A stretch of DNA of 62,834 nucleotides, taken from contig JAQTTZ010000013.1 of NCBI GenBank assembly GCA_028710485.1, forward strand, positions 1 through 62,834, written 5' to 3'. Position 1 is the stretch's first letter. Every line of letters starts with the position of its first letter. This stretch comes from Bacteriovorax sp. (GTDB lineage Bacteria > Bdellovibrionota > Bacteriovoracia > Bacteriovoracales > Bacteriovoracaceae). Below, piece by piece: positions 28,049 to 62,651 of this stretch. The position numbers were made by a program, and so were the translations under genes. Under the pieces are notes generated by a model. That model was not told the DNA's origin. It saw only the letters and a list, made by a program, of their open reading frames with translations, and did not search any database.

Positions 28049-28255
28049 TTAAATATTGTGATAATTAATAAGCTGGAGGTGCAGTTGATTAATTTTTTCG
28101 ACTGTTAGTGGAAGAATTCTCTCAACTAATTCTGGATTCGATCTCCACTCATCTTTCATCACTTCCAAAGCTCCTTGCAGCGCAGATAAAGAAGAATTTA
28201 TATCGTGAACCAATACTTGAGCGGAAAGGTCTTTTTCATATATCAGCTTATGCAC
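28049..28255 (-). CDS. Stand-alone histidine-kinase dimerisation/phosphoacceptor (DHp) domain
   Basis: A 68-residue protein made almost entirely of one DHp-like hairpin. Helix one has LVHDINSSLSALQGALEVM with candidate phosphoacceptor His17, matching the H-D/E-x-R/N-x-P-L box except that Pro is Ser; helix two has VERILPLTVEKINQL. Compare AHDIRSPLSALNM of the kinase at 57705-59846. There is no ATPase domain in it or after it. Its start overlaps the upstream NtrC-type regulator gene by 8 bp. It may be a phosphotransfer relay or a decoy for that regulator, or a kinase truncated long ago. Confidence 0.6.
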   Translation of the reverse strand: MHKLIYEKDLSAQVLVHDINSSLSALQGALEVMKDEWRSNPELVERILPLTVEKINQLHLQLINYHNI

Positions 28256-29606
28256 GTCCTGACTCCCGTGCCTTCAGTTTGTCCAAAATTCTATAAAAAG
28301 AATTATTAGATATTTTTAGATCTGACAAAGTTTTGCGAACTTTATCCTCATTAGTTTCGAGAGCAATTTTCAAAATATTAGTTTCCAAATTTTCAATATA
28401 AGACTTTAGCCCCAAACGCTTCACTTCTTCCAGATCAAATTTGACCTTTGCTGGTGGCCCTTTGCTTAGTAGAGGTTGCAAATCTTCTGCCGTTACAATT
28501 CCACGATCACGAGTTTGAAGTACCTCTATCGTGCGTTCTAGTTCGCGCACATTTCCAGGCCACGAGTATTCTGACATGATCAACTTTGCGCTAGAATCGA
28601 AAACAATAAGGCGCTCTCCCTTCTTGATAAAAAACTGAATTAATTTATTAAGATCTTCTTTTCTCGCGCGCAATGATTTCAGCGTTACGTTAAAGCCTTC
28701 AATCCTGAAAAAAAAGTCTGCTCTAAACTCACCTTTCTCAATTTTAGTTTTTAGGTCTTCGCAAGTCGCACTTATTAGTCTGAAATCAGAGTGAATACTT
28801 TTTTCAGATCCTAGTGGGAAAAAAGATTTTTCTTCGATGGCCTTCAATAATTTTTTCTGAATGGATATTGGCATAGTGGCAATTTCGTCTAAAAATAAAA
28901 TTCCGCCATCCGCAAGCTCCAACATTCCCTTCTTGGACCTCTGAGCACCAGTGAATGCCCCTTTCTCGTAGCCAAACAATTCTGACTCAATTAAGCTTTC
29001 CGATATTTCAGCACAATTCAAATGCACGAAAGCAGATTTTTTACCTAATACTCTTTCCGATAACTGATGAATAAATTTTGCTAAGAATGTTTTCCCCGTG
29101 CCACTCTCCCCTGAGATAAAAATTGGTCTTTGCCCCAATAGTGCCTGGTCAATAATCTCTAATTCTTTTACTAATGAAGCATCATCAGTGAGAAAAATAT
29201 CTTTTAATTCTTGAAGAGTTTTATTTTTATTTATCGCGGAAAAGTATTTTTTAAAAACTAATTCCAGGCTGGTTTTAGTGAAGGGTTTCGCTAGATAGTC
29301 GCGACATCCTAGGTGATATGCATTTTCAATTACTCTTTCGTCAACTCGTCCACTAAGTACAACTGTATACGTTTTTTTGTCATTCAATAGTGCTACAATA
29401 TCCAATCCGGCCAGCTGTGATTCAAGGTCTAAATCGACAAACGCTAAATCAAATTGATTATTTCCGATAAGGGAAATGGCTTCTTCTTTTGATGAAGCTT
29501 CACGAACTTCACCTCTAAAATCAAGTCTTGATTTCAAACTCAGGCGTGAAAGCAAGTCGTCTTCTACGATAAGAATTTTGAGAGTCCCGATAGTTTTTGT
29601 TTTCAT
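28248..29606 (-). CDS. NtrC-family sigma-54-dependent response regulator
   Basis: 452 residues: receiver domain (about 10-125; acidic pocket Glu15-Asp16-Asp17, phosphoacceptor Asp58, Lys107), AAA+ domain (about 145-375) with Walker A GESGTGKT (166-173), the sigma-54 contact loop GAFTGA (216-221), Walker B ILFLDE, and a Fis-type helix-turn-helix at the end (about 410-445). It activates sigma-54 promoters after phosphorylation. ATG with AGGAT upstream. It is divergent from the giant Ig-like lipoprotein gene, a possible target, and is followed by the lone DHp protein, a possible phosphodonor. Confidence 0.92.
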   Translation of the reverse strand: MKTKTIGTLKILIVEDDLLSRLSLKSRLDFRGEVREASSKEEAISLIGNNQFDLAFVDLDLESQLAGLDIVALLNDKKTYTVVLSGRVDERVIENAYHLGCRDYLAKPFTKTSLELVFKKYFSAINKNKTLQELKDIFLTDDASLVKELEIIDQALLGQRPIFISGESGTGKTFLAKFIHQLSERVLGKKSAFVHLNCAEISESLIESELFGYEKGAFTGAQRSKKGMLELADGGILFLDEIATMPISIQKKLLKAIEEKSFFPLGSEKSIHSDFRLISATCEDLKTKIEKGEFRADFFFRIEGFNVTLKSLRARKEDLNKLIQFFIKKGERLIVFDSSAKLIMSEYSWPGNVRELERTIEVLQTRDRGIVTAEDLQPLLSKGPPAKVKFDLEEVKRLGLKSYIENLETNILKIALETNEDKVRKTLSDLKISNNSFYRILDKLKARESGRA

Positions 29607-54865: not shown

Positions 54866-55938
54866 TGTTTTTGGCTTTTTAGGAGCCTTCTTTGAGTTAT
54901 CTGAGAGGGCCTTTTGGGGCGGATTCTTAGCAACTGGTGCCGCAACCTTCAAAAGCTTATCAAAATCAGACTCAAACAAGCGATCCTGAACGATTCTATA
55001 TTTTTCAAATTCAGATTCTGCGTGGTTTTTAGCTATTTCAGCACTAATTTTACCTGCATCCTAAAGAACACTTCGATCTGTGAATTCAAGAAAGCGATTA
55101 AGACGTATTTCCCAATCTTGCATGGTCATTGGAATATGTCGCTTGGCCATGTCTTCAGCTAAATCAAGATAAGTGCTCACCAGACGCTGAAGTTGTTCCA
55201 TCTCACCTTGATTTAAATAATTCTTAGCAACGACAACATCAAATTTTTGAATTTTTCCACGGGGCGCATCTGTCCAAGTCGTAAGTCCCATATTTTGTTT
55301 TTCTGCGTCAGCACGACTCACAATCATTTCAGCTGCCGTCTGCCCATGAATAGCCCAGTGAAGTTTATTTTGTACTGTCGAAAAGAATCTATTTGTGGCT
55401 TGAGCGGTCACGTCATAATCAATTGCAGTTGAATAAATATCTGTAATTTTTTGATAAAACTTTCGCTCAGAAAGTCTTATCTCGCGGATGCGTTGCAATT
55501 GCTCTTCAAAATACTTTTTGCCTAATATTGAGCCATCATTTTTAAGGCGCTCATCATCCATTGCAAAGCCTTTGATCGCAAATTCCTCGACGATGTTTGT
55601 GGCCCATTTACGAAATTGAACTGCTCGCTCCGAATTAACCTTGTACCCTACTGCAATTATGGCCGACAGATTGTAATGTTGAGTCTCGTAACTTTTTCCG
55701 TCAGCGGCAGTTATTAGAAATTTTCCTGCAACTCTCTATCCGAAAAGATTTTTTTTAAGTGGTAATTGATGGTCGGAATCTCGACATCATAAAGTGTAGC
55801 CATCATCTTTTGTGTGAGCCAGACATTTTCATCAGCATATACAGTCTCAATACCCCCATTGCCACTGCTTGCGACAAAGGTGAGATATTCGGCGGCCGAA
55901 GAACGAACAATCGAGACTTCTTTATTTTTCTTTTTCAT
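54851..55938 (-). pseudogene. RhuM-family gene (copy 2), frameshift plus in-frame stop
   Basis: A nearly full-length RhuM gene can be read across frames. From 55938: MKKKNKEVSIVRSSAAEYL, WLTQKMMATLYDV, then near 55725 a frameshift, then LITAADGKSYETQHYNLSAI, VNSERAVQFRKWATNIVEEF, DDERLKNDGS, FFSTVQNKLHWAI, HIPMTMQDW. An amber codon at 55061-55063 replaces a Lys codon (SVL*DAGKISAEIA), after which the frame stays open to 54851 (KKAPKKPKTRRKK). Two lesions make it a pseudogene. It is not a recent duplicate of copy 1; the sequences differ widely. Confidence 0.8.
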
Positions 55939-57704: not shown

Positions 57705-59846
57705 TTATCCAAGTTTAATGGGTGGCTCTTTGCCTAAAACAGAGATAATAAAATCCATTCTAGAGAAATGGTCTGCGTCATATCCTGTAGCAAGGTGTAA
57801 CTTTTTGAAGCCGTCTTCAAATAATTTTTCAGCAACATCTTTACCGTTAACGCCGTTGCCTAAATGTACGTCAATAAATATTGATGAATTGTAATCAAAA
57901 TTCCTTTGCTCGGCGAGAAAGTCTTCATAACATTTAAAACCAATAAATTTTTTGTTATGCTTACTGGCCGATGCTTTCCATGTCAGGCGCACCAACTCAT
58001 CATCATCAATCAAAATCCAATCATATCTCTCTTTCGCTTTTTCAATCACGATTGGCACAAATCCCGCCAATGATTTTGGTAAAAGTTTAATATTCAATAA
58101 CTCACATCTACGCTTAATCTCAGGTTCTTCATAACGACTCGTCACCAAGATTACATTTTCAAAAAACCCAAGATGTTCGATAACTTCCAGTCCATTTGTA
58201 TCCTGACCTAAAAGTTCAAAGTCGATAAGAAAAAGGTCTTTCGATGTTGTCTCTGATTTCTCTGCTTGAATACATTTCTTGAACTCCAAAGCAGATGTAA
58301 AATTATTGATATGAATATTTTTATAAGTGCCCTGTATATTTTCTAGGCGACTTTTCCATATCTGATGAATTGTTAAATCATCATCCAAGCAATATATTTC
58401 CATTTCGGACGACAAGACCAAAGATTCCAAAAACCAAGCTGGAGTCTTCGCCCTCGGTAATTGAATCTTCACTTGCGTTCCTTGCCCCAACTGTGAAGTG
58501 ATTGCAAAATGTCCTCCCATCGCCTCTATACATTTTTTTGCATGATAAATTCCAAGACCACTTCCGCTATCGGAATCATTCTTACCATAACTCAATCCTG
58601 CTTTGCCTAGTTGATTTAGAATCTCTTGAGGTATGCCACCTCCATTATCTTTCACGAGAATATTAACCCAATCCCCACGAGTCTCAATTACTATAATTAC
58701 TTCTCCTTTATTATCAGGAAATGCCTCTACAGAATTGTTCACAAGATTAGACAAGATACGCTTTAAATCAATACTTCCTGCTTTAACAAAACAACCAAGA
58801 CCATCCTTTAAGTCTGCATCAATTTTAATATTTATTTTGTCTCGAAATTGAATACGCTTCTCAGAGACAAGTCCGTCAACAAGAGGTGCTAGTAAAATAA
58901 GTTCCCGCTTACTTTCATCAAGAGGTAACTGGTCTGTGTCACTGCTTGTTTTTATTTTCTCTGCATTTAATTTTCCTTTTGCAAGAAGATCATTTGCAAT
59001 ATCATTAATTCGCTGTATGGAATTACGGATAAGAAGTCTTTTTTCCTCTGAGACTTCACCTAATTCGCTTGAAACCATATTCAGAGCAGATAATGGAGAG
59101 CGTATATCGTGGGCAACCTGCGATGCCATTTCGCTCAAGACCCTTAGCGATTCGCTTTTCATTTCAAGATTGCGGAGACGACCAATTTCATCACCATAAA
59201 ACTTTAAGGATGATTCGATCTCAATTATTTCTGATAATTTTCCATTTAAATTAATCGAGGATAACCCATTTGGCGTTGGCGTCCTAAGCGCATGATGAAT
59301 TGTAACAAATGGCTCAATGATTGAGTTTTGTATCGACCGACCAACTTTTAGTAACAAAATAGTTAATATTGAAAATCCGAATACCAAAAGACCTAAAGTA
59401 ATCATTACGATTTTATTTCTACTTTTTTGTTCGAGTAAAACCTCAACTTCACCTACAAGCTCGGCCCCACTTGAGTCAAAATAAATTTTCTTAACTAAAT
59501 GTGGTGAAGTAGACTGCATCCCTTCATTGCACACATCTTTTCCAAATGAATCTTTAATTACTAAATGAACGACACCATCTGACTCATTAGAAAATTTTTT
59601 GCATTTCCGAAATACTTCAGAATGATTTCCCTTAACCATGTCTTGCCGAATATTCTCGGTAAACATATCAACCCAATTTTGGTGAGCTTGGTTAAAAGCA
59701 TGGTCGGAAACCCAGTACACTGCAAAACCAGTCAGGCAAGTCATAACAATACCCAACACAATAGGCACCACAACTGAATAAACTGAAAAAAGACCTGAAA
59801 GACTTCTTTGAGGTTTAATTATTAATTTTTCCAAAATATTCGCCAC
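57705..59846 (-). CDS. Membrane hybrid histidine kinase with two receiver domains
   Basis: 713 residues: two membrane helices (about 22-47 and 146-168) enclosing a roughly 100-residue periplasmic sensor, a linker, DHp with phosphoacceptor His246 (VAHDIRSPLSAL), HATPase with N-box (Asn367/370/371) and G-boxes DNGGGIP and GSGLGIYHAKK, then receiver 1 (about 483-600; Asp488-490, phosphoacceptor Asp542, Lys591) and receiver 2 (about 608-708; Asp614-616, Asp659, Lys706). No output domain, so the signal should pass on to another protein. The start overlaps the upstream substrate-binding protein gene by 25 bp, suggesting that protein presents the ligand. Confidence 0.92.
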   Translation of the reverse strand: MANILEKLIIKPQRSLSGLFSVYSVVVPIVLGIVMTCLTGFAVYWVSDHAFNQAHQNWVDMFTENIRQDMVKGNHSEVFRKCKKFSNESDGVVHLVIKDSFGKDVCNEGMQSTSPHLVKKIYFDSSGAELVGEVEVLLEQKSRNKIVMITLGLLVFGFSILTILLLKVGRSIQNSIIEPFVTIHHALRTPTPNGLSSINLNGKLSEIIEIESSLKFYGDEIGRLRNLEMKSESLRVLSEMASQVAHDIRSPLSALNMVSSELGEVSEEKRLLIRNSIQRINDIANDLLAKGKLNAEKIKTSSDTDQLPLDESKRELILLAPLVDGLVSEKRIQFRDKINIKIDADLKDGLGCFVKAGSIDLKRILSNLVNNSVEAFPDNKGEVIIVIETRGDWVNILVKDNGGGIPQEILNQLGKAGLSYGKNDSDSGSGLGIYHAKKCIEAMGGHFAITSQLGQGTQVKIQLPRAKTPAWFLESLVLSSEMEIYCLDDDLTIHQIWKSRLENIQGTYKNIHINNFTSALEFKKCIQAEKSETTSKDLFLIDFELLGQDTNGLEVIEHLGFFENVILVTSRYEEPEIKRRCELLNIKLLPKSLAGFVPIVIEKAKERYDWILIDDDELVRLTWKASASKHNKKFIGFKCYEDFLAEQRNFDYNSSIFIDVHLGNGVNGKDVAEKLFEDGFKKLHLATGYDADHFSRMDFIISVLGKEPPIKLG

Positions 59847-61324
59847 AACTCACCTTCGTACCTAAATTTAGTATTGGGAAAAGATAGCTCACTTCTGTAT
59901 ACAATGGGTATTTTTAACCTAAACAATGGGACAAAATAATTTTTTTGTTCAAACTCATGAAAAGTTTTTGTGTAAGCGCTTAATCTTAACTCTAAGTCGC
60001 TTTCAAATCTGCTCTTTTCTAAATTATCAAAAAGTGGCTTTGAATTAAATTCTCCGGCATGCATTGGTGATGACGTATTTAATAAATCTATAAACGCATC
60101 TGGATCCGGAAAATTCCCAACGTATCCAAAACTAATAATGTCATAATCTTTATTTTTAATTGATGCCAAAATCTCTTCCGGCTTTCCTAAAGTGATTTTT
60201 GTTTTAATATTATTGCCTCTTAAAATTCTTTCCAATATCTCTACAAATTCTAGTGAGAAATTACTTTGAGAGAGCATAATCTTAACAGTACCCGGAATAG
60301 TTGAAATTACCTTGCAATGACTATTTTGATTATAATACTGCATCGGCATCACGCCGTTAGGAAAAAATGATTTTAGTCGCTCCAACATCGGATTGATATT
60401 TGCAAATTCATCTGCCGCCTTGCTCATTAAGCATGACAATGTTGACCGATAATCATCATTATTAAACATACCCTTTGTATTAAAATAAGCGTGCAATATT
60501 GCCAATGACTCAGAAAGAGTAATTGCCATTTTTGTATTTTCAAATGTTTTAAGGTTTAAGTTTCCCCTGCTTACCCCTAACGCTAAATCAATTAGGCCAT
60601 CTGCAAACATTTTCTTGGTCGCATCAGCACCTGTAGACTCTAAAACAGTGACTTGATTCAAATCCATAGATCTAACAAATAAGTTATTCTTTAAAAATGA
60701 TAGTTTGTTTTTTTCATTTCTTTTTTCTAATTTTAACGGACCACTTCCAACGGGAAGAAAAGTATCATTATGATATTTTGTGATTGAAAATCCTGGCATA
60801 GATAATACATGAAGGAATGGATGATAAAATGACTTTAACCGAATACCAAATGTGTGCTCATTTATAACCTTAAATGCTGGATGAATATGATTAACTTGAA
60901 TTGTCTCTGTATTGGCCAAAGCCACCTTTAAATAATTGGCTACTACCGACGGAGACCCTGTCCAAAAATGGCGAGACAAACTCCAAGCCACATCTTGGGC
61001 GGTAACAGGTGTGCCATCTGAAAATCGTGCATCAGGATCGAGAGTGAAAATATATTCTTTCTTTTTTGCATCATATTCCCATCGTTTTGCCAAATAACTT
61101 ACCAACTCACCAGACTCATCGACTCGAACGAGGGTTTGAGAAAATAACTGAAGTAGTAAGAAATGCTCAATCAATCTTAACTTGGTAGGGTCAAGCTCAG
61201 CCGGGATTTGGTTTATTGAAACTGTTATCATTTTTTTACCCATCCTCTCGTTCCAGTTTTGCTCTGGATTCTTAGCAAGACCCAACAATAAAACGCTAGT
61301 CAATATCAAGATCAAAGTACGCAT
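59822..61324 (-). CDS. Family-5 (oligopeptide-type) solute-binding protein
   Basis: I prefer the ATG at 61324 (MRTLILILTSVLLLGLA), which gives a tidy signal peptide; an ATG at 61336 is also possible. The 500-residue product shows SBP_bac_5 features: ITVSINQIPAELDPTKLR, LAKRWEYDAKKKEYIFTL, FSDGTPVTAQDVAWSLSR and the late NFPDPDAFIDLL. These proteins bind peptides, nickel or sugars for Dpp/Opp ABC importers, but no permease or ATPase gene is adjacent. It sits between a LanM-like gene (13-bp overlap) and the kinase gene (25-bp overlap), so a sensing role is more likely than import. Confidence 0.85.
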   Translation of the reverse strand: MRTLILILTSVLLLGLAKNPEQNWNERMGKKMITVSINQIPAELDPTKLRLIEHFLLLQLFSQTLVRVDESGELVSYLAKRWEYDAKKKEYIFTLDPDARFSDGTPVTAQDVAWSLSRHFWTGSPSVVANYLKVALANTETIQVNHIHPAFKVINEHTFGIRLKSFYHPFLHVLSMPGFSITKYHNDTFLPVGSGPLKLEKRNEKNKLSFLKNNLFVRSMDLNQVTVLESTGADATKKMFADGLIDLALGVSRGNLNLKTFENTKMAITLSESLAILHAYFNTKGMFNNDDYRSTLSCLMSKAADEFANINPMLERLKSFFPNGVMPMQYYNQNSHCKVISTIPGTVKIMLSQSNFSLEFVEILERILRGNNIKTKITLGKPEEILASIKNKDYDIISFGYVGNFPDPDAFIDLLNTSSPMHAGEFNSKPLFDNLEKSRFESDLELRLSAYTKTFHEFEQKNYFVPLFRLKIPIVYRSELSFPNTKFRYEGELWRIFWKN

Positions 61325-62349
61325 TTTGACCGCCATTCTTTAGTTATAATCTCTAATGTATTGTCATTTTTCTTTAATTCTAACCCAGATATTTGTTCGT
61401 GATATAGATTTATTTCAACTGTCAACCTGTCTGCAATTTGTAAAGCTCCATATTTTGCAAACTTTTCCAACTCCTCCCAGTAAATATTCATTTCTGAAAG
61501 TAATAATTGGGTAAGTATGAAAGATGTGTCCGTCGCATCCTTAACAACGGCAACCTCACCATTGTTCCAATAATTAATTGTTTTGGAATTTAGATATCTA
61601 AAGAAATAAGGAATGTCTCCTGCTTTTAATTGATCGACTTCTTCAAGTATTAAATGATCTATCTCTACAGCACCATTGCACCAACGCCCATAAACACTTG
61701 TATTTTTCAGCAAAACTCTTGCTAAATCTTTAGGACTAAACACATCATTAATTATTTTAAAAATTTGATTTCGATTTAAAAATAACACTTTCATTGTGCT
61801 TAGGTAGGCTTCTACCACGTGGATAGGTAGCAAAACATTTGAATCCATAATATTTTTTATTCCGAACTTAATATCGGTGTGATCTTTTGAAATTAGCCCA
61901 GTCTGAAAAGGAAGTTTAATATTTTGAAAAAAACATTCAATGTCGATAGGTGCAAAAATAAATTTACCTTTCTCGTTATGCCCATATTTAATGTTCTCAT
62001 GATGTAAATCAGAAAGCCCAAACCACTGAGAAATTGCCAACAAATTGCCTACTGCTTCCGACATTTTAACAGCATCTCCATTACTGAATGAACTTGTGTT
62101 TAAGTTTAAGAAATTCACCACTCCAACTTCAGATAAATTTTCGTTGTAAAATTCAAGATTGGGAAAATAATTAAAAATAGAATTTTCTTTAAAATAAACC
62201 CTCAGCGGACTCTTCTCGGAAAGAAAAAAGCATTCAGCTAGACACGGACGAGGTTTTTCAATACGTCCATCGATATTTAGATTTACTGATTTACCACCAT
62301 TATGCTTATCCCCTAATATTTGCGGTCTACTTAATTTTAGATTATGCAT
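61312..62349 (-). CDS. Stand-alone LanM-like dehydratase/kinase domain (DUF4135-like)
   Basis: 345 residues. Two blocks match the core of class II lanthipeptide synthetase dehydratases (DUF4135): GDKHNGGKSVNL...IEKPRP at 13-35, corresponding to GDxHxxGRxV...YKPR with Lys32 as the ATP lysine, and FGLSDLHHENI at 110-120 (Asp114, His116, Asn119) followed by PIDIECFF (Asp136, Glu138). Full LanM enzymes exceed 900 residues and have a C-terminal zinc cyclase; none is here. Activity could be Ser/Thr phosphorylation or dehydration of a peptide. The small exported protein 17 bp upstream is the obvious candidate partner. Divergence is high, so the function is unproven. Confidence 0.7.
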   Translation of the reverse strand: MHNLKLSRPQILGDKHNGGKSVNLNIDGRIEKPRPCLAECFFLSEKSPLRVYFKENSIFNYFPNLEFYNENLSEVGVVNFLNLNTSSFSNGDAVKMSEAVGNLLAISQWFGLSDLHHENIKYGHNEKGKFIFAPIDIECFFQNIKLPFQTGLISKDHTDIKFGIKNIMDSNVLLPIHVVEAYLSTMKVLFLNRNQIFKIINDVFSPKDLARVLLKNTSVYGRWCNGAVEIDHLILEEVDQLKAGDIPYFFRYLNSKTINYWNNGEVAVVKDATDTSFILTQLLLSEMNIYWEELEKFAKYGALQIADRLTVEINLYHEQISGLELKKNDNTLEIITKEWRSKCVL

Positions 62350-62366
62350 ATTGGGATTAACAACTT

Positions 62367-62651
62367 CTAGAATCCGCCAGTATCATGAATTGATTTTTTC
62401 AAGTCATTTTCTAATAATCTTAAATCTATTTCTTCAGAACTGTCGGAGTTTTTAATTTCTTGTGGAATTGTATTGAGTAGCTCTACCTTGGTAGCACTAG
62501 GAAGCTCGTTCAATATCGGTGATGTGTTCACACCAATTTTCTTTAGAGTTAAAATCGACTGAAATATAGTTTGAGTACTTGGCTGTGTAGTATCACTGGC
62601 ATTAACTAAAAATGGCATCAATGCAACTAAACCTAATAAACTTTTTTTCAT
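62367..62651 (-). CDS. Small exported protein, candidate peptide partner of the LanM-like enzyme
   Basis: 94 residues with a signal peptide (MKKSLLGLVALMPFLVNA/SDT) and a strong GAGGAGG six bases before the ATG. The mature part is Ser/Thr-rich near its N-terminus (SDTTQPSTQTIFQS), ends KKSIHDTGGF and has no cysteine, so it cannot form lanthionines by itself. It is the first gene of the four-gene run. It could be a signal precursor, a substrate, or merely a small periplasmic protein. Confidence 0.6.
   Translation of the reverse strand: MKKSLLGLVALMPFLVNASDTTQPSTQTIFQSILTLKKIGVNTSPILNELPSATKVELLNTIPQEIKNSDSSEEIDLRLLENDLKKSIHDTGGF

Follow-up and report, generated by a model that had tools for sequence, protein, structure and literature searches.

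A candidate modified-peptide signalling cassette in Bacteriovorax and other Bdellovibrionota, with a cyclase-free LanM-type enzyme encoded beside a binding protein and a hybrid kinase

Introduction

How Gram-negative bacteria signal by means of peptides is poorly understood. In lantibiotic autoinduction, as in the nisin and cytolysin systems, a modified peptide signals to a kinase, while in systems of the LuxP–LuxQ type a periplasmic binding protein works with a hybrid kinase and the ligand is autoinducer-2. Here, we describe a four-gene set that resembles both, on a contig of Bacteriovorax sp. (JAQTTZ010000013.1 of assembly GCA_028710485.1; 62,834 nucleotides, all of which is referred to as the window). 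It encodes a candidate precursor peptide, a stand-alone DUF4135 protein, a family-5 solute-binding protein (SBP5) and a membrane hybrid histidine kinase. The nisin and cytolysin systems differ from it in being Gram-positive, with cyclized peptides and no SBP5 co-receptor, and unlike LuxP–LuxQ it has a family-5 binding protein adjoining a peptide maturase. We read the set, and the cassette it represents elsewhere in the phylum, as a signalling system of the ribosomally synthesised and post-translationally modified peptide (RiPP) type, in which a linear dehydrated peptide would be sensed through the SBP5 and the kinase, and give this reading a probability of roughly 0.6.

On the side of peptide synthesis, the DUF4135 protein shares with class II LanM enzymes (CylM, 5DZT; LicM2, 6ST5) a predicted lipid-kinase fold, nine phosphorylation and elimination residues and a GDIPYF region. 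It differs in its size (345 residues versus 979–993 in two solved LanM chains) and in having neither the N-terminal region nor a LanC cyclase; its precursor has no cysteine, and no peptidase-containing ATP-binding cassette (ABC) exporter was seen. The phospeptin pathway of ‘Candidatus Eudoremicrobium malaspinii’ (embA/embM), as far as described in the available part of PMC9259500, likewise pairs a precursor with a single maturase, a homologue of the LanM dehydration domain, and yields a linear product. However, key dehydration residues are mutated in EmbM and kept in the window enzyme, and that part of PMC9259500 mentions no binding protein, kinase or signalling role. Dehydrazoles, in the accessible text of PMC10676384, also involve a divergent DUF4135 enzyme, LanMbC, but one that carries a fused class III cyclase and has YcaO as its partner. 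The DUF4135 network of the same paper retained only proteins of at least 500 residues, and the large lanthipeptide survey in PMC7268733 was anchored on LanC and dropped open reading frames (ORFs) without cysteine or shorter than 30 residues. By the filters stated in those sections, loci like that of the window would therefore have been kept by neither. No literature was found for DUF4135 together with Bdellovibrio, nor any description of this gene set in the open-licence literature.

Results

The gene set and its recurrence in the phylum

The window is one whole contig (C231) of genome G000 (4.3 Mb, 234 contigs; in what follows G, C and L numbers denote genomes, contigs and loci). The four genes lie at the contig end, with 183 bp seen upstream of the small gene, as intact ORFs on the minus strand from 62651 to 57705. 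An earlier note on this DNA had given them a 17-bp gap followed by overlaps of 13 and 25 bp. The gap, between the small gene and the DUF4135 gene, was confirmed, as was the 25-bp overlap, while the figure of 13 bp holds only if the SBP5 gene begins at a later ATG (61324), both overlaps being 25 bp with the longest ORFs.

Relatives were searched in 57 genomes for single proteins and in 368 genomes of the phylum for families and profiles. The window enzyme alone, as query, found matches in 3 of the 57 genomes and one locus, a full LanM, in a search of genome contigs, whereas the Pfam DUF4135 model matched in 20 of the 368 genomes, mostly proteins of about 350 residues, and a profile built from 21 DUF4135 proteins (A1) in 30. 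Neighbourhoods were fetched and their ORFs compared with the window proteins. The cassette was found at 26 loci in 22 of the 368 genomes, with an SBP5 at 25 and a kinase at 24. The earlier note had named homologues standing mostly apart as the outcome that would speak against a single system, and had suggested searching related genomes for the gene order with the LanM-like protein; the set instead recurs with a peptide at every one of these loci. The SBP5 gene is shortened at L065 and L066, both of which end at a contig edge before the kinase, and lies in two frames at L051. Two groups of loci consist of near copies, L065 with L066 and L068, and L054 with L055.

The order peptide–DUF4135–SBP–kinase of the window also occurs at L060, L062–L066, L068, L104 and L105. 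At L049, L050, L051, L054, L055, L058 and L061, a major facilitator superfamily (MFS) transporter comes first, in the order MFS–SBP–kinase–peptide–DUF4135; L036 has this order from the SBP on, its upstream end being off the contig. Divergent orders occur at L052, L053 and L056, with another divergent form at L067 and L106, while L038 and L057 read DUF4135, then MFS fused to SBP as one protein, then kinase, and L107 reads DUF4135–kinase. At L038 (6929-7971; G016) the DUF4135 gene is in two frames, with a stop or shift between, and SBP and kinase are open. Chance assembly of the four genes was rejected, as the set recurs in several gene orders and strand arrangements.

A second cassette of genome G000, with the short precursor MENVISVNLEAIEAEAELFEGGTSSY, is spread over two contigs (L036 on C223 and L098 on C18) whose overlap is exactly 127 bases; the 13 other genomes of the genus gave no match to profile A1. 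Contamination of G000 is 8%, but a contaminant origin of the contig was rejected because a 700-aa protein encoded on it is matched in all 13 of these genomes (up to 83% identity in G002; in G012 a 72-residue piece only), a check made for the window contig C231. A Clostridiaceae match (L006) was rejected as a relative, being a full LanM of unlike organisation. As regards mobile carriage, plasmids gave no match to the L050 enzyme and viral contigs none to profile A1 (searched with a single peptide pattern), though both may hold distant relatives.

The candidate precursor peptide

The precursor gene (62367..62651, minus strand) follows a strong ribosome-binding site (Shine–Dalgarno-like GAGGAGG) and encodes 94 residues, 19 of them Ser or Thr and none Cys, with no Pfam family. 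The earlier description of a small, exported, Ser/Thr-rich protein agrees with this composition and with a predicted signal peptide at residues 1–18 (62598..62651; hydropathy 2.66 over 12 residues). Its N-terminus, MKKSLLGLVALMPFLVNA followed by SD, is typical, and the likely cut between VNA and SD was placed by eye; all precursor signal peptides were called by a simple hydropathy rule rather than a dedicated predictor. Comparison with other loci places a leader-like motif, IDLRLLE, at residues 75–81 (62409..62429), 13 residues from the C-terminal end (sequence end SSEEIDLRLLENDLKKSIHDTGGF). The tail at residues 82–94, NDLKKSIHDTGGF (62370..62408; one Ser, one Thr), is the probable core by its position after the motif, as in other loci.

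Reading the short frames upstream of the DUF4135 genes found a peptide before the enzyme at 26 of 26 cassettes, with the start picked by eye where the frame was longer. The peptides, 22–27 residues long in 13 loci, carry a leader-like motif [IV][DN]LxxLE and a Ser/Thr-rich tail, as in L053 (MNENTIIELSEIEEVQSAPTSW), L056 (MVEVMIDLEALEQSTAVQGNSDF), L049 (METVFIDLEALEIEAESYEAGASSGG), L050 (MTEVILINLDELETAAEAMGTGVSSQ) and L038 (MENVEIIIDLANLEASANTNQSETGF), and at the C-terminal ends of the precursors of L060 (VIDLKTLEYEARGPATGITSG) and L104 (TIDLKKLELESKGPATITSG). A strict motif, [IVF][DN][LVI]xx[LI]E, lies upstream of 19 of 36 DUF4135-type gene rows, all 19 of them cassettes, and of none of 352 control genes, these being the other genes of at least 150 aa in the same loci, with the short upstream frame checked; the rows count L038 as two pieces and leave out L110. 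A loose form, [IVFLM][DNE][LIV]xx[LIV], takes in 30 of the 36 rows, including all 26 cassettes, but alone does not discriminate (28 of the 352 controls; 3 of the 9 non-cassette loci in the list, L037, L099 and L108). Both forms were defined after the peptides had been read, and the control counts are therefore the fair measure. Less circular support for the window precursor comes from a motif matrix built without the window, from 21 segments (for the L054, L057 and L064 peptides, the anchor was displaced by a few residues or the peptide was omitted): the 94-aa protein ranks first among window ORFs of up to 130 aa, and third when all window ORFs are taken, where two sites in an SMC protein outscore it.

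Ser and Thr make up 28% of the peptide tails versus 13% in proteins of the same loci, and 21 of 23 peptides have at least two within the last ten residues. In the near copies L065, L066 and L068, every amino-acid change in the precursor falls in residues 1–39, while residues 40–96 show 8–11 synonymous and no non-synonymous codon differences per pair; the adjoining enzyme shows 25–34 non-synonymous versus 30–34 synonymous differences. The L054 and L055 peptides differ by three synonymous codons only, although the preceding 60 bases are identical. Purifying selection on one core is extreme. The loci therefore contain what is expected of a RiPP, an encoded precursor beside its maturase, with a core and a conserved region through which the enzyme would recognise it.

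A stand-alone enzyme without a cyclase

The enzyme gene (61312..62349, minus strand) encodes a DUF4135 protein of 345 aa (E 3.9e-9; 36.6 bits, cut-off 29), and the family was matched in all 21 enzymes given to Pfam. Its score against the NCBIfam LanM model is far under the cut-off (31.3 bits versus 304), because only the kinase/elimination core is present; the term ‘LanM-like’ used earlier suits this core and not a full LanM. All nine phosphorylation and elimination residues of CylM, whose roles are given in PMC4550811, are conserved. The elimination residues D14, H16, R211 and T217 are among what is retained, in contrast to the mutated residues of the phospeptin type, and the protein is predicted to adopt the LanM kinase/dehydratase fold. 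Proteins of the cassette type do not have the first ~240 residues of CylM. In 21 of the 22 cassette genomes the search turned up no LanC cyclase, PF05147 being absent from the window enzyme and not found in G000, and the 94-aa window precursor offers no Cys for thioether rings. An ordinary lanthipeptide cluster was rejected on these two grounds, and the window has, as in the phospeptin pathway, a sole DUF4135-type maturase without a cyclase.

Export

Precursors with a signal peptide occur in the window and at L060, L062, the L065-type loci, L067, L105 and L106, where no cassette-type MFS gene was seen; a protein with at least six membrane segments was found among them only in the window (by hydropathy count the one such window protein, 40 kb off) and at L060 (11 segments, more than 6 kb off). 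At 13 other loci an MFS gene or fusion is present and the precursors have no signal peptide. Twelve of these 13 MFS proteins match cassette references, and the call at L053 rests on 12 predicted segments and position. For L036 and L104 the export route is undecided owing to contig ends.

Binding protein, kinase and regulators

The binding protein (59822..61336, minus strand; 504 aa, with an N-terminal hydrophobic signal sequence by eye) matches SBP_bac_5 (PF00496, E 3.5e-33). NCBIfam ranks NikA first (75.9 bits, cut-off 393) and OppA next (52.4 bits, cut-off 947), with all scores far below cut-off. A profile of the SBP family matches peptide- and nickel-binding proteins among known structures, the best being AapF, followed by MppA, OppA and DppE; PrgZ, a pheromone-binding protein, is also among the matches (best 60 of 86). 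The earlier call of an oligopeptide-type protein therefore stands for family 5, with a peptide as one reading only of its ligand. No ABC permease was seen beside the gene, the sequence past the contig end not being visible, and the gene adjoins that of the kinase, as in binding-protein-dependent hybrid kinase systems. Across the cassettes, PF00496 was found in 19 of 19 SBPs given to Pfam and HATPase_c in 23 of 23 kinases.

The kinase (57705..59846, minus strand; 713 aa, GTG start; HATPase_c 2e-21, HisKA 2.3e-6) shows, by eye, two hydrophobic stretches that lie some 100 residues apart. Pfam Response_reg detected neither of the two receivers that had been described in it, and no receiver was found among PDB sequences with the profile of either. 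Profile comparison nevertheless bears both out: receiver 1 (58014..58409) matches receivers of NtrC proteins at related loci (hhalign 95.9%, E 6e-9) and receiver 2 (57708..58031) matches receiver 1 (96.5%, E 9e-10), though NtrC receivers directly only at 24%. In the aligned rows (13 for receiver 1, 3 for receiver 2), the DDD, Asp and Lys positions do not vary. The two-receiver kinase is common to the window, L064 and L104. A sigma-54-type response regulator adjoins the cassette in 10 of the 26 loci (two of the ten were scanned with Pfam; the L058 regulator is split in two). The window has no such regulator next to its cassette; the closest match lies 28 kb off (28248-29606), and the contig ends upstream. 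The earlier description of the set as ‘self-contained’ therefore has to be corrected in one respect, as ten loci add this regulator.

A different RiPP enzyme before a similar receiver pair

Among the 57 relatives, the nearest to the window SBP belongs to G015 (E 9e-40), in an operon (L112:4553-10315) encoding a repeat precursor, an epimerase-like protein, an aKG-HExxH peptide beta-hydroxylase (TIGR04267, 51.5 bits, cut-off 40), an SBP5 and a hybrid kinase. The precursor (295 aa, with a signal-like start) contains seven repeats that end in SESRVEIL or a similar sequence. Four of the six spacings are 25 residues, and by eye a stretch such as INLQNL stands ahead of several repeats. G081, of the same genus, has this operon too (L134:5401-11056), there with six repeats. 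The hydroxylase here occupies the place of the DUF4135 protein before the SBP5–kinase pair, although its chemistry differs, its precursor consists of repeats and the epimerase-like gene is additional; a like receiver chassis is therefore fed by another known type of RiPP enzyme. A profile of window-type SBPs including that of G015 (A8; E 1e-75 or better) matched in 16 of the 368 genomes: in cassettes (including a fragment in G261), in G015, G081, G162, G285 and G054, and in a second SBP near the L053 cassette.

In close relatives, an SBP5, a kinase, an NtrC-type regulator and a protein of alpha/beta-hydrolase size recur together (L115:6468-11518, L116:6044-11134, L114:6962-13677). At L114 no clear kinase adjoins the SBP, and no peptide-modifying gene was recognised at L114–L116.

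Other loci

Several further loci were seen. At L059 (4317-6713; G131) a LanM is split, with a 373-aa LANC_like protein ahead of a 396-aa DUF4135 protein, and the stretch gave no match to an SBP or a kinase. The DUF4135-type proteins at L037 (6430-9566; G022) and L101 (8563-10635; G130) adjoin family-2 glycosyltransferases and perhaps represent another RiPP type; L037 also encodes a PqqD-like protein just below cut-off. At L102 (G143), upstream of 10500, a 63-aa frame ending CDYCACTIGCARGCS precedes the DUF4135 gene and resembles a Cys-rich RiPP precursor. Elsewhere in the window, a RhuM-family gene (55061-55938, minus strand; PF13310 E 1.7e-72, positions 62-222 of 252) is seemingly split from its N-terminal part.

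Discussion

In the mechanism that we propose, the stand-alone LanM-type enzyme would bind the precursor through the motif ahead of its short Ser/Thr-rich core, phosphorylate Ser and Thr of the core with ATP and then eliminate the phosphate to leave dehydroalanine and dehydrobutyrine. Elimination is proposed because the elimination residues are kept; as a cyclase is lacking and the window precursor is free of Cys, the product would stay linear. Export may proceed via Sec where the precursor has a signal peptide, as in the window, and via the cassette MFS transporter where it has none. Within the envelope, the SBP5 would capture the released, processed core and dock on the sensor domain of the kinase, which would relay phosphate via its receivers on to a response regulator, possibly the sigma-54-type protein of the same locus where one is present, so that the cell would sense its own peptide. 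At the level of sequence, the earlier proposal of a peptide that the cell makes, may modify, exports and senses is supported: the set recurs, the precursors share a motif, signal peptides and MFS genes alternate, the catalytic residues are kept and in two genomes another RiPP enzyme stands in for the DUF4135 protein.

Several observations weigh against this reading. Ten DUF4135/LanM loci in eight genomes (L037, L059, L099–L103, L108, L109 and L110) have no SBP5 or kinase in the fetched stretch, while L115 and L116 have SBP–kinase pairs without any RiPP enzyme; the window-family SBPs of G162 and G285 have no kinase in the fetched stretch and for that of G054 the kinase is 4.6 kb off. One cassette, L107, has no SBP, a short kinase and neither MFS nor signal peptide, and the only MFS gene at L064, truncated at the contig end, is an ordinary divergent one that looks unrelated. 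Seven of the 26 cassette peptides meet the loose motif only, 5 of 22 tails contain Cys, and no core-releasing protease was seen in the window cassette. Choices made by eye also enter, as the signal peptides of L067 and L106 depend on the start chosen and the peptide lengths at L036, L054, L058, L064 and L067, for example, rest on starts within longer frames. The pattern of either a signal peptide or an MFS gene (Fisher p 1e-4 over 20 loci, with L036, L038, L064 and L104 left out and the L065-type counted once) is only suggestive of alternative export routes, because there are at best three tree-independent pairs, one of them on supported branches, and the sign test is not significant. The enzyme, SBP and kinase distance matrices (19 loci) correlate at 0.73–0.78, with none of 5000 permutations as high, but shared history was left in and the correlation may partly mirror that of the species.

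The step most readily doubted is elimination. The ~240 N-terminal residues of CylM are missing, and elimination may therefore be impaired, in which case the enzyme would be a peptide kinase only, like EmbM, and a phosphorylated linear peptide the signal. EmbM, as described in part of PMC9259500, is also a sole maturase of the LanM-dehydratase type, with a linear polyphosphorylated product; the retained elimination residues of the window enzyme set it apart, and we consider a phosphopeptide signal unlikely, though worth keeping in mind. A different division of roles would make the peptide mainly antimicrobial or directed at prey, with the SBP and kinase tuning production or giving self-protection. 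Many LanM products are antimicrobial and a kinase is common in lantibiotic loci, and the patchy distribution of the set (22 of 368 genomes, absent from the 13 same-genus genomes searched) would suit such a function. However, no immunity-type ABC genes were recognised, 9 of 22 checked loci lack any protein with at least six segments (several being short contigs), and the cores are tiny, with one under extreme purifying selection, so that we regard this explanation as distinctly unlikely.

It is also conceivable that the SBP and kinase sense external ligands, such as a metal complex or peptides that serve as nutrients or come from prey, and that the DUF4135 protein and the small protein modify or tune the receptor. 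The ligand may indeed not be a peptide, as the best NCBIfam match of the window SBP, though far below cut-off, is the nickel-binding NikA, and the SBP5–kinase–NtrC–hydrolase sets of L115 and L116 occur in relatives without a peptide-modifying gene. Against this stand the motif peptide beside the enzyme in all 26 cassettes and the second RiPP enzyme type, with its repeat precursor, at the same place in G015 and G081, and we consider it very improbable. We therefore favour a linear dehydrated peptide, sensed through the SBP5 and kinase, as the product of the cassette.

The components are of known kinds, and their combination is without a description that we could find; to our knowledge, a use of cyclase-free LanM chemistry for signalling would be new. 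At about even odds, the cassette and its relatives may represent a modular class of Gram-negative RiPP pheromones, with linear dehydro- or hydroxy-peptides, interchangeable stripped-down enzymes, precursors down to 22 residues, export by Sec or a dedicated MFS transporter and a hybrid kinase controlled by an SBP5. Such loci would mark a blind spot in lanthipeptide surveys anchored on the cyclase. If the reading is correct, these bacteria would have a concrete and testable communication system, with maker and reader in one operon, a use for the cyclase-free LanM domain would be explained, and RiPP enzymes would be interchangeable makers of signals.

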